A stretch of 43,271 bases of DNA. Origin: Planctomycetota bacterium (lineage in GTDB: Bacteria; Planctomycetota; Planctomycetia; Pirellulales; Pirellulaceae). The translations under genes were made by a program, and so were the position numbers. The notes beneath the pieces were generated by a model. It searched no databases. It worked only from the letters and a program-made list of their open reading frames with translations, and was not told the DNA's origin. The stretch is taken from positions 1 through 43,271 of the forward strand of contig JAPLNM010000032.1 in the NCBI GenBank assembly GCA_026692845.1, read 5' to 3'. Of this stretch, positions 1 through 4,414 are shown piece after piece (the stretch's first letter is position 1; each line of letters begins with the position of its first letter).

Positions 1-69
1 AGTCCCGTCGGCGATACCGGCGTGTCGCTCAGCAGCAAGAGCGATCAACAACTTCGTCATGGCACCTAG
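1..69 (+). CDS. possible C-terminal tail of a gene entering from the left
   Basis: Frame 1 is open from the window edge to a TAG at 67-69 and ends in the hydrophilic tail SLSSKSDQQLRHGT. It is too short to identify. A minus-strand frame starting with ATG at 60 (MTKLLIALAAERHAGIADGT) is also open to the edge, so the coding strand is undecided. If the tRNA scar at 280-323 marks an element end, an integrase gene would be a natural candidate here, but nothing in these few residues shows that. Confidence 0.2.
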   Translation, partial: SPVGDTGVSLSSKSDQQLRHGT

Positions 70-130
70 GGTCCACGGTGCTAGCCGACCCTATCCTCGA
101 TGGCGTTTGACTCGAAGGATCCCGTCGTAA

Positions 131-201
131 GTGAGTACGCTACTCACTAGGGTGAGTAAATCCGTCATTTCTCCAATGTTTTTCGGGTTGGTCATACTCA
201 C
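131..201. promoter_or_regulatory. cluster of four GTGAGTA heptamers (possible arm-type or operator sites)
   Basis: The heptamer GTGAGTA occurs at 131-137 and 152-158 on the plus strand, and inverted as TACTCAC at 141-147 and 195-201. The first two form a perfect inverted repeat with a 3-base spacer. With the flanking base the shared core is RGTGAGTA. Four copies in 71 bases is far above chance for a 7-mer. The position close to a tRNA-type attachment core suggests arm-type binding sites of a tyrosine recombinase, or operators for a regulator encoded to the left. Both roles are inferred. The rest of 70-279 holds nothing else recognisable. Confidence 0.5.
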
Positions 202-279
202 CATTGCCAACGGTCCCGAAATAGGTTATACCAATGAAAAGACAGGCAATTCAGTGATTTAAAAGCCGTCCAAAGGTTC

Positions 280-323
280 GCTTCATAAGCCGTGTGTCGC
301 CGGTTCGAGTCCGGCCTTCGCTA
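280..323 (+). other. 3' half of a tRNA (anticodon CAT): probable attachment-site scar
   Basis: Numbered as a tRNA, 284-286 is the anticodon CAT in a TTCATAA loop, 294-298 the five-base variable loop, 299-303 and 311-315 a perfect T-stem (GCCGG/CCGGC) around the loop TTCGAGT, 316-322 the 3' acceptor strand and A323 the discriminator, all with canonical spacing. Upstream of about 280 the fit stops: the 5' anticodon-stem strand mispairs and there is no D-arm or matching 5' acceptor strand. It therefore cannot be a working tRNA. The parent would be tRNA-Met or the CAT-type tRNA-Ile. A displaced 3' half is what site-specific integration into a tRNA gene leaves at one end of the element. Confidence 0.6.
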
Positions 324-357
324 CTATCTCTTTGAGTGTTTTTGTGCGGCGTGCGGT

Positions 358-609
358 GTAGGGTGCGGTGAAGCGGTCGGCCTGTCATTTACCAAGCCAC
401 CGATGTCCACGAATCCACCCTCATCATTTCGCCCCATCGAGCGCATCGACCGCGCAACCCACCATCGAGCATGGGAACCTCGTGTCGCACCCCGCGAGCA
501 CAGTACGTTCCGCGGTCCTTTTGTTTGGCGACGTCTACCGAGCGATCGTTGTGGTCGATGCTTTTGCGGGTTCTTTGGGTGGTCAAGAGGACCGCTTCAC
601 GATCCCTAC
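358..609 (+). repeat. left copy of ~250-base element flanking the RAYT gene
   Basis: The element opens with GTAGGGTGCGGTGAAGCGGT (358-377) and closes with the near-inverse GACCGCTTCACGATCCCTAC (590-609). A second copy in the same orientation lies at 1255-1505, with long identical stretches such as the block around 440-475 matching 1328-1370. The outer ends carry GTAG reading inward, the tetranucleotide known next to the palindromes recognised by RAYT proteins. An inner GGTC/GACC hairpin lies at 580-593. The copy begins only 34 bases after the tRNA scar and ends 6 bases before the transposase stop codon. Confidence 0.75.
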
Positions 610-615
610 GGAAGG

Positions 616-1164
616 CTATTCGAGTTCGATATTTTTGATGTTGGCAGGGAGCAAGCTGCCCCAGTCCTCGTGGTAATGCCCCATTTTGATGTACTTATGA
701 ATTGTCGAATAAGGCCAATCAACGGGCCGGAGTCGATAGCCATGTTTGGTTGGGTTGTAATGGATGTAATCAAAATGGTTCTCAAGGTCCCGCGCATCCC
801 GAATGCAATGCTCCCAGAATCGCCGTTGCCAAATGCCTCGATTCCCATTTCGTTTTTGCGAATCGGTAACAGGAACCTCGTACCCTCCGCTCGCAAGCCA
901 CGGTTCAGTGAATCCATCCTTGATTCGTTTGAGCCTCGTCGAAAAGTCCATATCGCCCGAGGGTAAAGACCACAGGCAATGGAAATGATCTGGTAATAGA
1001 ACCGAGGCAATATTGATGAAAGGCGATTCTTTTTGAATGGTGTTCCAGGATTCGCGTAGCAAGTCGATGGCTCGTTTTTCGCCGAAAAACGGATATCGTC
1101 CATAGGTATTGACAGTGAAAAAATAGGTTCCACCGGGTACGTAATATCGAAGATATTCCGACAT
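616..1164 (-). CDS. REP-associated tyrosine transposase (RAYT, IS200/IS605-like Y1 family)
   Basis: This 182-residue protein belongs to the Y1_Tnp/RAYT family, single-strand DNA nicking enzymes that act on REP hairpins. The metal-binding HUH signature is LPDHFHCLW (His60, His62). The family signature FDYIHYNPTKHG (131-142) supplies the catalytic tyrosine, most likely Tyr133 or Tyr136. Length is usual for a full-length RAYT and there is no frameshift, so the gene looks intact. The start at 1164 was chosen because GGAG lies 8 bases upstream and the family normally begins close to YYVPGGTYFFT; a longer frame would start at 1221. The gene stands alone, without TnpB or accessory genes, between repeats that are probably its substrates. 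Confidence 0.9.
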   Translation of the reverse strand: MSEYLRYYVPGGTYFFTVNTYGRYPFFGEKRAIDLLRESWNTIQKESPFINIASVLLPDHFHCLWSLPSGDMDFSTRLKRIKDGFTEPWLASGGYEVPVTDSQKRNGNRGIWQRRFWEHCIRDARDLENHFDYIHYNPTKHGYRLRPVDWPYSTIHKYIKMGHYHEDWGSLLPANIKNIELE

Positions 1165-1254
1165 GTTCAATCTCCACCTTGAGTCATTGATCCATGTGTG
1201 TCTGCGGATTTTACCAATCAACCGCGATTAACACCCTAATTTGGCATAGATTTC

Positions 1255-1505
1255 GTAGGGTGCGGTGAAGCGGTCGGCCCATTATTTTCCAAGCCACCGA
1301 CACCCACGAATCCACGATCGTTATTTCGCCCCATCGAGCGCATCGACCGCGCAACCCACCATCGAGCATGGGATCCTCGTGCTGCACCCCGGCGCGCATG
1401 GTACGTTCCGCGGTCCTTTTGTTTGGCGACGTCTACCGAACGATTGTTGTGGTCGATGCTTTTGCAGTTTTTGGGTGGTCACGAGGACCGCTTCACGAAC
1501 CCTAC
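1255..1505 (+). repeat. right copy of ~250-base element flanking the RAYT gene
   Basis: It begins GTAGGGTGCGGTGAAGCGGT at 1255 like the left copy and ends with GACCGCTTCACGAACCCTAC at 1486-1505. It is slightly diverged from the left copy. Its 3' half (from 1392) is the first of three tandem units that run on to about 1797, so only the right copy was amplified. Confidence 0.75.
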
Positions 1506-1797
1506 GAAAACCACCGCGTATCGAAGACCACCCAGCGCGCATGGTACGTTCCGCGGTCCTTTTGTTTGGCGACGTTTACCGAACGAGTGGTCGATGCTTT
1601 TGCAGTTTTTTGGGTGGTCACGAGGACCGCTTCACGAACCCTACGAAAACCACCGCGTATCGAAGACCACCCAGCGCGCATGGTACGTTCCGCGGTCCTT
1701 TTGTTTGGCGACGTTTACCGAACGATTGTTGTGGTCGATGCGTTGGGGGTTTTTTGGGTGGTCACGTGGACCGCTTCACGAACCCTACGAAAGGCAG
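1392..1797 (+). repeat. three tandem ~140-base units with nested inverted repeats
   Basis: The units start with GCGCGCATGGTACGTTCCGC at 1392, 1535 and 1674, giving lengths of 143, 139 and about 124 bases. Each contains GGGTGGTC followed by a short GGTC-N5-GACC hairpin and the end sequence GACCGCTTCACGAACCCTAC. In the first two units GGGTGGTC (1473-1480, 1612-1619) pairs with GACCACCC (1526-1533, 1665-1672), forming a larger stem. The second unit lacks several bases around 1587. The third is diverged after 1740 and lacks the closing GACCACCC. No reading frame in the array looks like a real protein: the same peptide recurs in three frames only because the DNA repeats. Confidence 0.85.
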
Positions 1798-1857
1798 ACC
1801 GTTTGGTGCGGCTACCAAAAAATGCAAACGCAGAGTCGTAGGGGGCTTGGTTGTGTT

Positions 1858-1895
1858 CCTCGCCGTTGGCGGCGAAGCGCAAGACGAGGGTTTTT
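1858..1895. terminator. weak hairpin at the 3' end of the deoxyhypusine synthase-like gene
   Basis: CGCCG (1861-1865) and CGGCG (1870-1874) form a stem with a TTGG loop, and CCTCG (1858-1862) can instead pair with CGAGG (1885-1889). A T-run follows on the plus strand only (1891-1895). The hairpin directly follows the minus-strand stop codon but lacks a U-tract in that direction, so termination is doubtful. Confidence 0.25.
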
Positions 1896-2886
1896 ACTGT
1901 CCTAGGACATAGGCGAAGATCAATGGGGCGACGATCGTCGCGTCGCTGTGGATCATGAATTTCGGGCATTCTGGATCGAGCTTGTTCCAGGTGATCTTCT
2001 CGTTGGGCACCGCTCCGCTATACCCACCGTAGCTGGTCTCCGCGTCGCTTATTTGGGAAAAGTACTCCCAACGGCGAATGTTTTCTTCTCCCAAATCCTG
2101 GATCCACATCGGGACGGCACAGATGGCAAAGTCACCTGCTATCCCACCACCGATTTGGAAAAACCCGATGGGCCGATGCTCGGCAAGCTGCTTGTACCAG
2201 TTGGCCAAGTGTTCCATTTGTTGGGTGCCGCTCTTGAGCGCGGAGTGACTTTTCACGGTTCCATCCATCACGCGCGCTGCGAACATATTCCCAAGCGTAG
2301 AGTCCTCGATGCCAGGTGAATAAATCGGGATCTTGGCCTCCTTGGCCGCTATCATCCAAGAATGTTCACGCGGGATTTGGTAATGCTTTTCAAGGTCCTT
2401 CTCGTCGAGGATTCGGAACATGTATTCGTAGGGGAAGTACTGTTCGCCTTTTTCAGCGGCGTCTTTCCAGTACTTGATCAGTCGATCTTGCATGTGCATC
2501 ATGACGGTCTCTGGGATGCAGGTATCCGTCACGCGGTTGAGGCCACGGTCGCGCAGGTCGACTTCGTCCTGCGCACTGAGCGATCTCCAGTTCTCAATCA
2601 CATGGTATTCGTTGTGAGCGAACAGATTGAATAAGTCTTCTTCGAGATTAGCCGCCGTGCAGGAGATCGCATGGATCTTGCCCTTGCGGATCATCTCGGC
2701 GAGCGAAATCCCTAGTTCGGCAGTGCTCATGGCTCCGGCAAGCGAAACCATCATTGCACCTCGTTGGTTTTCAATGAAGCTTTTGTAGGCTTTGGCCGCA
2801 GCCAGAGTCTCCCGGGCGTTGTAGTGCCGGTAGTGCTTCTCCATGAACGCGGTGATACTCATTGACGAATCTCTCTTGAAAGCCAT
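1894..2886 (-). CDS. deoxyhypusine synthase-like protein
   Basis: The protein belongs to the deoxyhypusine synthase family (COG1899), NAD-dependent enzymes that transfer the 4-aminobutyl group of spermidine to a lysine or to another amine. Family landmarks are SCTAANLEEDLFNLFAHNEY, GIEDSTLGNMF, FQIGGGIAGDF and the C-terminal TWNKLDPE. In TWNKL, Lys302 aligns by eye with the active-site lysine of the eukaryotic enzyme (SWGK). Bacteria lack eIF5A, so the substrate is unknown; homospermidine-type activity is one possibility. The gene starts 34 bases after aceF and shares its strand, so it is probably the last gene of the pyruvate dehydrogenase operon. The start is at 2886, or at 2862 (MSITAF), where AGAGAG lies about 9 bases upstream. 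Confidence 0.88.
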   Translation of the reverse strand: MAFKRDSSMSITAFMEKHYRHYNARETLAAAKAYKSFIENQRGAMMVSLAGAMSTAELGISLAEMIRKGKIHAISCTAANLEEDLFNLFAHNEYHVIENWRSLSAQDEVDLRDRGLNRVTDTCIPETVMMHMQDRLIKYWKDAAEKGEQYFPYEYMFRILDEKDLEKHYQIPREHSWMIAAKEAKIPIYSPGIEDSTLGNMFAARVMDGTVKSHSALKSGTQQMEHLANWYKQLAEHRPIGFFQIGGGIAGDFAICAVPMWIQDLGEENIRRWEYFSQISDAETSYGGYSGAVPNEKITWNKLDPECPKFMIHSDATIVAPLIFAYVLGQ

Positions 2887-2920
2887 GGGGCAGGCGAATG
2901 TTTGATGCGATTGGTGTGGC

Positions 2921-4414
2921 TCAGATGGCCAGCAACAAACGACTCGGCGCCTCTAGATAAGCGATGATGTCGTTGAGGAAGCGTGCTGCGGTTGCTCCAT
3001 CGACCAATCGATGGTCGTAGGCAAGGCTCAGGGGCATCATCAAGCGCGGCTTGATTGAGTCATCCTGCATGACCATCGGCATCTTGCGCGATCGACCGAC
3101 GAGTAGGATAGCCACCTCGGGAACATTGACGATCGGGGTCGAATAGGTACCGCCGATAGCGCCTAAGTTGCTGATCGTAAAGGTTCCTCCGCGAAGATCG
3201 CTGACGGCAAAATCATTGTTGCGTACCCGGTTGGACAGGTCGGCCAGGGCATAAGCGATATCGGGGATCGACATGCGATCGGCGTTTTTCAAGGTGGGAA
3301 CAACCAAGCCTCGGTCGGTGTCGACTGCGATCCCTAAGTTGACGTAGTCTTTGTAGATGATCTGGTCGTTTTCTGAATCGATCTGCGCATTCAGCGCTCC
3401 GTGATGCTTCAAGGCGGTCGCAACGGCTTTGATCAAAAACGGCATGGTCGTGAGTTTGATTCCGCGCGATGCGTAGTCGTCCTTGCTCGATTGCCGGAAG
3501 GCTTCGAGTTCCGTGACATCGGCGTCGTCAAAGTTTACGACACGCGGGACGCTCGACCAGGACTTGTCCATCTGGTTAGCGATCATCTTGCGGATCTTGG
3601 TCATCCGGTCGACTCGTATTGGGCCGTAGTCATCGCTCGCCGGAGTGCCTGGTTTTTCGATCCCTTTGGAAGCAGCCAATTTCGCAGGCGATTCGACCAC
3701 TGGGGTTGCCGGTGCGCTAAGAGCAGGGCTTGAGGCTGCGGCAGGTTTTGCCGTCGCTGCTTGGCCCTGATGGCGAACGATGGCCAAGACGTCTTCGCGG
3801 GTGATGCGACCACCTTCGCCTGTCCCGGAGACTCCAGTCAAATCGACGCCGACCTCGCGGGCGAATCGACGGATCGCGGGCCCCGCAGCGATGATGTCGT
3901 CCTCTGTATCAGCTACCGCATTGGTGCTCGGAGCCGGGGGTGCGACTGCCGTTGCCGCTGGCATGGACGAAGCCACCGGCGCGATTGGCTTTGACGCAGC
4001 AGGCGCAGCGAGTGTTGGAGCGGTCGCAACCGGGGCGGTAGCCGTTGGAGCTGGAGCTGAAGGAGTCGGAGTAACTGGAGCTGGAGCAACTGGAGCCGGA
4101 GCTTTGGCAACAGGCGACTGGGCCACGGCCTGAGCGGGTGCTGGTACAGGGCTTGGTGCCGGCGAACTTGCCCCGGCCGTCGCCTCGATCGTTCCGATCA
4201 CTTGACCGATTTTGAGCGTATCCCCTTCTCGGATCGCGATGCTTACGATCTTGCCGGCCAGTGGGCTAGGTACCGCTACGGTTGCCTTATCGGTTTCGAG
4301 TTCAAGCAGCGATTGCTCGGGCTTGACCACATCGCCGACTTTGACATAGATCTCTAACACATCGCCGGACTCGACACCTTCGCCCAAGGATGGCAATTTG
4401 ATTTCTGAAGCCAT
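2921..4414 (-). CDS. aceF: pyruvate dehydrogenase E2, dihydrolipoyl acetyltransferase
   Basis: This is the core enzyme of the pyruvate dehydrogenase complex, moving the acetyl group from lipoamide to coenzyme A. One N-terminal lipoyl domain (about 1-78) carries the lipoylation motif ETDKATV with Lys43. A long Ala/Pro/Thr-rich flexible linker (about 83-165) follows, then the E3/E1-binding domain (about 173-212, AGPAIRRFAREVGVDLTG), a second linker, and the catalytic domain (about 260-497) with the acyltransferase motif YDHRLVDGA (His468, Asp472). Length and order fit a single-lipoyl E2. It follows aceE by 85 bases on the same strand. No E3 (lipoamide dehydrogenase) gene lies in the window. Confidence 0.95.
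   Translation of the reverse strand: MASEIKLPSLGEGVESGDVLEIYVKVGDVVKPEQSLLELETDKATVAVPSPLAGKIVSIAIREGDTLKIGQVIGTIEATAGASSPAPSPVPAPAQAVAQSPVAKAPAPVAPAPVTPTPSAPAPTATAPVATAPTLAAPAASKPIAPVASSMPAATAVAPPAPSTNAVADTEDDIIAAGPAIRRFAREVGVDLTGVSGTGEGGRITREDVLAIVRHQGQAATAKPAAASSPALSAPATPVVESPAKLAASKGIEKPGTPASDDYGPIRVDRMTKIRKMIANQMDKSWSSVPRVVNFDDADVTELEAFRQSSKDDYASRGIKLTTMPFLIKAVATALKHHGALNAQIDSENDQIIYKDYVNLGIAVDTDRGLVVPTLKNADRMSIPDIAYALADLSNRVRNNDFAVSDLRGGTFTISNLGAIGGTYSTPIVNVPEVAILLVGRSRKMPMVMQDDSIKPRLMMPLSLAYDHRLVDGATAARFLNDIIAYLEAPSRLLLAI

Follow-up and report, generated by a model that had tools for sequence, protein, structure and literature searches.

A RAYT transposase gene between long-loop GTAG hairpins: a very probable variant of the RAYT/REP system in Pirellulaceae

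The locus analysed here, near the start of a 43,271-nucleotide stretch of planctomycete DNA (hereafter the window), is very probably a REPtron of a long-loop type, a variant in Pirellulaceae of the known RAYT/REP (REPtron, BIME) system. A RAYT gene is bracketed by direct copies of about 250 nt, and each copy consists of two GTAG-headed hairpins in inverted orientation, their loops about 70 nt long. The pairing and register of the stems, their covariation, the dispersed copies and the link to one RAYT clade were all computed, and are laid out below together with the competing explanations.

The gene itself (616-1164, minus strand) is intact, begins with ATG and encodes 182 aa with the HuH motif DHFH and the tyrosine motif YIHYNP. 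Its protein matches the NF047646 profile (175 bits, E 7.6e-52, cut-off 80) and aligns with E. coli TnpA_REP (PDB 4ER8; E 4.7e-38; residues 1-169 of 182), which bears out the original prediction of a RAYT transposase; Pfam gave no match at 1e-3. W94, Q95, E100, H101, R104, Y115 and N119 (E. coli numbering) are identical in the two proteins, and Y115, its position counted on the 4ER8 alignment, is what we take to be the catalytic tyrosine. Judged by its sequence, the product is a predicted Y1 HuH transposase of the RAYT type with the GTAG-contact residues kept. W94, Q95, E100, H101 and R104 are named as the GTAG-recognition residues in the available text of PMC6006769.

The direct copies flanking this gene (358-613 and 1255-1509) share 89.5% identity over 257 columns, and a 139-bp tandem array (2.8 copies, 93% matches) covers 1388-1792. 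That copies of about 250 bases with inverted ends bracket the gene had been proposed and holds, the inverted ends of the right copy having been computed and those of the left one read from the sequence; the unit is not, as had also been proposed, a REP ten times longer than usual, but a head-outward pair of GTAG hairpins of about 106 nt with long apical loops. The left doublet consists of an L-type hairpin on the plus strand (358-463; cmsearch 85.6 bits, loop 69 nt), a linker (464-501) and an R-type hairpin on the minus strand (502-609; 85.6 bits, loop 72 nt), and the right doublet likewise of an L-type hairpin (1255-1360, plus; 90.2 bits, loop 69 nt), a linker (1361-1399) and an R-type hairpin (1400-1505, minus; 95.4 bits, loop 70 nt). 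Two extra tandem copies of the R-type hairpin lie beyond it on the minus strand, at 1543-1644 (91.4 bits, loop 66 nt) and 1682-1788 (99.9 bits, loop 71 nt), with spacers of 37 nt, the doublet linkers measuring 38-39 nt. Searched with a covariance model (R1) built from 22 hairpins, the window's own included, the 43-kb window yields these six hairpins (102-108 nt; E 1.8e-23 to 7.5e-20), all at the RAYT gene, and nothing beyond them up to E 10. A search by a head-only pattern, GTAGGGTNCGNTGAAGCGG with two mismatches, gave five sites against five in a reversed control, and no right-type hairpin. The right-side expansion that had been noted is present here, but the relative G004 has two left-side R-type hairpins (locus L017, 1238-1344 and 1382-1488), the right side there being cut by the contig end. 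As for the nested dyads described earlier, GGTC/GACC is indeed part of each hairpin's upper stem; the two tandem spacers alone contain GACCACCC (1526, 1665), and its partner GGGTGGTC lies at 577, 1473, 1612 and 1756.

The R-type layout reads GTAG, GGTTCGT, GAA, GCGGTCC, loop, GGACCGC, GGA, ACGTACC, and the hairpin at 1400-1505(-) folds as GTAG followed by a lower stem, a 3x3 internal loop and an upper stem. Folding, which had been suggested as a check, returned GTAG and the two-part stem in the best DNA fold of six of seven R-type hairpins (one without the outermost three pairs) and one of three L-type hairpins, which have one additional base in the lower stem; energies of single hairpins were not clearly better than those of shuffles (z -2.0 to +0.5, ten folded). 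Numbered from GTAG, the R-type has T at position 11 and its internal loop from 12, which is the register of the E. coli REP, where the mismatched region is placed at 12-13/26-27 and TnpA_REP contacts T11 and also G32 (PMC8266576, available text). This shared register suggests that most of the contacts of TnpA_REP are present here, G32 left out. The likeness to the E. coli REP/BIME system (RAYT group 2, 4ER8) takes in the GTAG foot, a lower stem of about 7 bp with T11, the irregularity from 12, the upper stem, the inverted pairs, a REP-flanked gene and identical GTAG-contact residues. The apical loop is the main difference, being 4 nt in the E. coli REP, whose upper stem-loop is ascribed a non-specific structural role in the same partial text (PMC8266576), and about 70 nt here.

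Across genera, the stems stay paired while the loop sequences diverge. Within the genus, 95.9% of 1233 cells are paired (101 distinct rows) against 23-41% with the 3' arm slid, and in the cross-genus set A3 (43 distinct rows) 97.7% against 20-50%, values that are biased upward because the alignments A2 and A3 were made to fit the structure of the model and include related copies, A3 also weak and double-strand matches. Both-side changes in A3 affect 8 of 13 pairs against 4.8 in shuffles (1 of 500) and 73 cells against 20.3, and covariation is 0.385 against 0.146 (0 of 500); further pair types show no excess (20 against 18.7; 129 of 500). Within the genus, both-side changes occur in 39 cells, where shuffles give 19.2, and one pair exchanges C-G for G-C in many rows; only two pairs changed on both sides against 1.3 (152 of 500), and further pair types are no more frequent than in shuffles (113 of 500). 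Exchanged upper stems can be read by eye as GCGGTC/GACCGC, GCGGATG/CATCCGC, GCGATTC/GAATCGC and GCGGTCGC/GCGACCGC.

The apical loop differs in sequence between genera but hardly in length. From 103 model matches in 44 sources, 95 were parsed, 89 of them with loops of 68-73 nt, and another 47 matches came from 12 other-genus stretches (20 were searched, the eight same-genus ones giving none). Complete hairpins, 134 of the 150 matches (15 genomes), measure 98-112 nt in 113 cases, 71-78 nt in 20 and 124 nt in one, and none of the 134 falls at 79-97 nt. These two size classes correspond to loops of about 62-76 and 35-42 nt, and short loops are not invisible to R1, since it also detects 31-nt and 38-nt hairpins. 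By sequence, the loops fall into 19 clusters, the threshold being set above the identity of shuffled sequences, and one cluster takes in 92 of the 134. C outnumbers G in 121 of 134 loops but, counted per cluster, in only 12 of 19, the reverse holding in six and equality in one. In a large array around the RAYT of G158 (L289), the hairpins come in two sizes, one for each strand: about 75 nt and 106 nt. By eye, the 38-nt loops of the window's own genome (G000) resemble deletion products of 71-nt loops in the same array, which suggests few independent origins of the two classes. Because the loop classes come close to the E. coli SSB site sizes of 65 and 35 nt per tetramer given in part of PMC9917605, the loop might be conceived as a size-measured single-stranded platform: it could hold one SSB tetramer at the replication fork and keep the strand open, and the SSB-held loop would then pass the stem to the RAYT, tying copying to the lagging strand. 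The few independent origins of the short class, one of them deletion-like, speak against this platform, which we regard as a quite improbable refinement.

Copies dispersed through the genome, which had been anticipated, were found: G000 has 21 matches at E≤1, and 17 under stricter filters. At the same threshold, and with draft assemblies and at most 145 candidates scored per genome, the other genomes of the genus (27 in all, the window's own included) gave 62 matches in G001, 9 in G004, 28 in G010, 61 in G011, 4 in G017, 34 in G019 and 5 in G024, and one in G014 (E 0.86) that was later dropped. Strong matches occur in 8 of the 27, G000 among them, and 18 of the 27 have neither a hairpin match at E≤1 nor a close RAYT. 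The copy numbers of 4-62 per genome in these eight draft genomes lie under the 'often >100' used to characterise REPs. Besides the window, a close RAYT (80-96% aa identity) is present in G004, G010 and G011, and hairpins occur in 4 of 4 genus genomes with a close RAYT against 4 of 23 without one (Fisher p 0.004, kinship ignored). The expectation that hairpins follow the RAYT agrees with the 18 genomes that have neither and not with G001 (62 hairpins), G019 (34), G017 (4) and G024 (5), in which no cognate RAYT was detected; with these four, the objection that copies might be as abundant in relatives without a RAYT is answered in part. The G019 contig stops inside a hairpin cluster at the place of the G010 RAYT (L100), so that the missing gene may be an assembly gap. 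All five G024 hairpins sit on one 5.4-kb contig (G024:C185, L095), and contamination or recent transfer is possible. In a family sample of 199 genomes (E≤0.01), hairpins occur in 10 and RAYTs above the curated cut-off in 74, both together in G000, G010, G158, G168, G169 and G192 and hairpins alone in G019, G048, G050 and G178; G001, G017 and G024 likewise have hairpins and no RAYT above that cut-off. The tie to any RAYT is weak at this level (6 of 10 against 68 of 189, p 0.18), and the test mixes types, since 25 of 40 further family RAYT loci have compact REPs. The single family hit in G168 is marginal (E 0.0017), one RAYT there being flanked by hairpins with 31-32-nt loops; in G192, the RAYT has compact REPs of its own, with the long-loop hairpins placed on different contigs.

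Long-loop hairpins flank the RAYT in G000, G004, G010, G011, G158 and G169, and in these genomes the gene lies between its own REPs with further copies elsewhere, the arrangement of a REPtron. In a tree of 92 RAYTs (quick method, no bootstrap), these six, which represent three genera, group together as a single clade (SH-aLRT 96). The long-loop label needs one change on the tree, equally low in 16 of 500 shuffles (nine labelled rows), the label having been set after the loops were seen and with G168 (31-32 nt), L021 (about 70 nt) and L022 (45 nt) left out. Nearest to them stand L116, L335 and L026, all with compact REPs (support of the joint group 87, not starred): L116 and L335 share a 31-nt REP, GTAG-GGTGCAT-GAA/GCA/GGA-GCG..-ATGCAC, alike in lower stem and internal loop, and L026 has a different short REP. 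A loop scan of 99 distinct RAYT loci (20 from relatives, 79 from GTDB), with CTAC-tailed partners excluded and some heads missed (for example L018 in the scan of further family loci), found at least half of the called heads with loops ≤25 nt in 73 loci, loops of 60-76 nt in seven (five being L016, L017, L018, L288 and L289, the other two, from outside the clade, being L021 and the weak case L030), 13 loci mixed or other and six without a call. The 40 further family loci comprise 25 compact ones, 11 without a call and four with tentative values of 44-110 nt; L333, counted as compact, also shows two heads with apparent 69-nt loops. The RAYTs at L021 (G090) and L022 (G068) come from two further families of the order. 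Their REPs are of the GTCAGGC type and have 8-bp stems, with loops of about 70 nt at L021 and about 45 nt at L022. Long loops are therefore not unique to the clade, given those at L021 on a different stem, and the two loci are perhaps cases of independent loop enlargement. A compact form in the genus (29-nt pattern, ≤3 mismatches) occurs, among the 27 genomes, only in G000 (5), G004 (1), G010 (3), G017 (2) and G019 (13). We considered and rejected these local compact REPs as ancestral to the long-loop ones, since they occur only in five genomes bearing long loops and two of the three sister RAYTs have another compact form; we infer instead that the long loops arose at the base of the clade and that the local compact REPs were derived later.

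The hairpins might alternatively be old relics, or regulatory RNA or terminator elements, immobile in either case, and the RAYT a domesticated housekeeping protein, which we consider unlikely. Hairpin-bearing loci compared among genomes include at least about ten sites that two or three related species have in common, some genomes with no detected RAYT still retain hairpins, and published RAYTs are described as resembling housekeeping genes in part of PMC8266576, all as such relics would have it. However, the number of hairpins at one site (L113/L085/L099) varies from species to species, with one, four and three in G004, G010 and G019, the neighbours of the REPtron in G000 and G004, where it lies behind tRNA-Met, differ from those in G010, and the stems stay paired as the loops diverge, with no Rfam family matching window 1-3000 at E≤1. 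Of the ongoing amplification suggested at the outset, only these varying counts at one site remain. The neighbours in G010 are presumably collagen-like and DUF1501-like genes; G000 keeps a headless remnant at this second, G010-type site, and in G017 both the RAYT and long-loop hairpins are absent from the tRNA-Met place as well as from the G010-type place. Movement of the REPtron as a unit was proposed from the different neighbours and dropped: recombination between REP copies explains them equally, and transposition is therefore not claimed. Comparing sites with and without the element, recommended as a way to the exact ends, did not deliver them, as counterparts sought for five of nine single sites included no clean empty site, two that were followed up holding unrelated DNA instead.

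Upstream of the REPtron and outside it, a tRNA-Met(CAT) 3' fragment (280-323, plus) matches the G004 tRNA-Met site at 94% identity across 65 nt, and ARAGORN reported no complete tRNA in the window. Elsewhere in the genome (G000:C29:3828-4007, L282), a tRNA-Met is followed by a second 3' fragment, and window 1-330 has only the 3' part. The arrangement suggests a genomic island that inserted into tRNA-Met and whose far end would be window 1-279. REPtrons lie directly 3' of a tRNA in two genera, at tRNA-Ser in G169 (L288, by eye) and at tRNA-Met in G004 (L017) and the window's genome. On the other side, window 1894-2886(-) encodes a deoxyhypusine/homospermidine-synthase-like protein (PF01916, E 9.2e-45; far below NCBIfam equivalog cut-offs), and no long-loop hairpin was found around copies of this gene in the searched stretches of G010, G019 and G004.

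Conservation begins at the C/GTAG boundary in 77 distinct upstream contexts from 91 genus rows, some of them orthologous or tandem, with 1.5 bits for C at -1 and ≤0.5 bits further upstream, which agrees with the expected coincidence of the ends with GTAG; on the 3' side, it fades across some 12-20 bases past ACC. The hairpins favour extragenic DNA and avoid long ORFs: 5 of 103 have over half of their length within ORFs ≥250 aa, although such ORFs span 58% of the remaining sequence at these loci, and 15 and 31 of 103 inside ORFs ≥200 aa (65% covered) and ≥150 aa (74%), a test that rests on ORFs and not on annotated genes. In L076 (G000:C103), tandem GGCGATCGGTGCCAGGCACAT repeats begin beside a solitary L-type hairpin. 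Neighbouring hairpins form 76 pairs, 36 head-to-tail, 30 GTAG-outside and 10 GTAG-inside, and 23 of the 30 GTAG-outside pairs (147 hairpins) have gaps of 9-11 or 29-39 nt; inverted pairing at a preferred spacing, as in BIMEs and REPINs, is thus a property of this family. It is very unlikely that the doublet of about 250 bp is instead a MITE with TIRs of about 20 bp, moved whole by a DDE transposase, with the RAYT between its copies by accident. The doublet ends are inverted, the right doublet can be folded over its full length as a single structure (z -4.4, but just z -1.35 for the left doublet) and GTAG-outside pairs are common (30 of 76), as would suit a MITE, but 33 of 147 hairpins stand without another hairpin within 160 nt, 36 of the neighbour pairs run head-to-tail, the arms covary inside each hairpin, and long-loop hairpins flank six of six RAYTs of one clade. 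A TIRtron (TIRYT), a RAYT relative between long inverted TIRs that are unrelated to REPs, of which part of PMC3733652 gives published cases, resembles this locus in the long repeats flanking the gene, but the flanking copies here are direct and carry GTAG-headed hairpins and the protein, of just 182 aa, retains the GTAG-contact residues, which makes a TIRtron a very improbable reading.

Among known systems, the long-loop REPtron has its closest counterparts in those built on GTAG. GTAG stands directly before an imperfect palindrome in these hairpins, as in GTAG REPs, but they do not share the small loop and the short length (20-40 bp or 21-65 nt) of those repeats, and the family is hence a variant and not a canonical GTAG REP; REPs are quoted at 21-65 nt in part of PMC6006769, against mostly 105-109 nt here. 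REPINs (Bertels and Rainey 2011, PMC3116915, available text) are alike in their two inverted REPs, tandem clusters and a doublet foldable as one hairpin, and they differ in that each partner here is itself a long-loop hairpin, with solitary and head-to-tail hairpins common. GTAG-REP families 1-24 (Di Nocera 2013, PMC3733652) share the GTAG tag, stem-loop and dimers, and GTAG repeats are reported there for the PVC superphylum; their loops are mostly of 2-3 nt, with 9-15 in GTAG-15 and an inner region of up to 27 in GTAG-14, and the available portion of that text has no 70-nt loops. The Ma REPtron of Marinomonas (PMC8266576, available text) has an irregular stem followed by a 'large loop', as here, in a whole REP of only 38-42 nt. 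Because a published REP survey, so far as the text at hand goes (PMC6006769), searched for loops of 2-5 nt with a second stem optional, long-loop REPs would be missed by its rules. The literature found on planctomycete RAYTs and REPs consists of PMC3733652 and PMC6006769; planctomycetes are mentioned in both, and such loops are described in the available text of neither. The suggestion of an undescribed planctomycete REP/BIME-like family therefore stands as a RAYT-linked family for which no published description was found, and falls as a unit made of one giant REP.

For the long-loop REPtron, we propose that the RAYT most probably reads three parts of each hairpin on single-stranded DNA, namely its GTAG foot, its lower stem of 7 bp and its purine-rich internal loop, and that it would then cut beside the hairpin and rejoin the strands, binding, cleavage and strand transfer being carried over from published E. 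coli and Stenotrophomonas work. In this way the hairpins would multiply as elements that are not autonomous and would give rise to inverted doublets and tandem arrays, and the apical loop of about 70 nt may stand in for the usual loop of a few bases, its sequence not being read. Foot, lower stem and internal loop are kept, and the loop is free in sequence and nearly fixed in length. The long-loop RAYT clade and its compact-REP sisters with a like lower stem offer a natural experiment in RAYT recognition, and with such matched enzyme-substrate pairs the recognition and spreading of REPs become testable.
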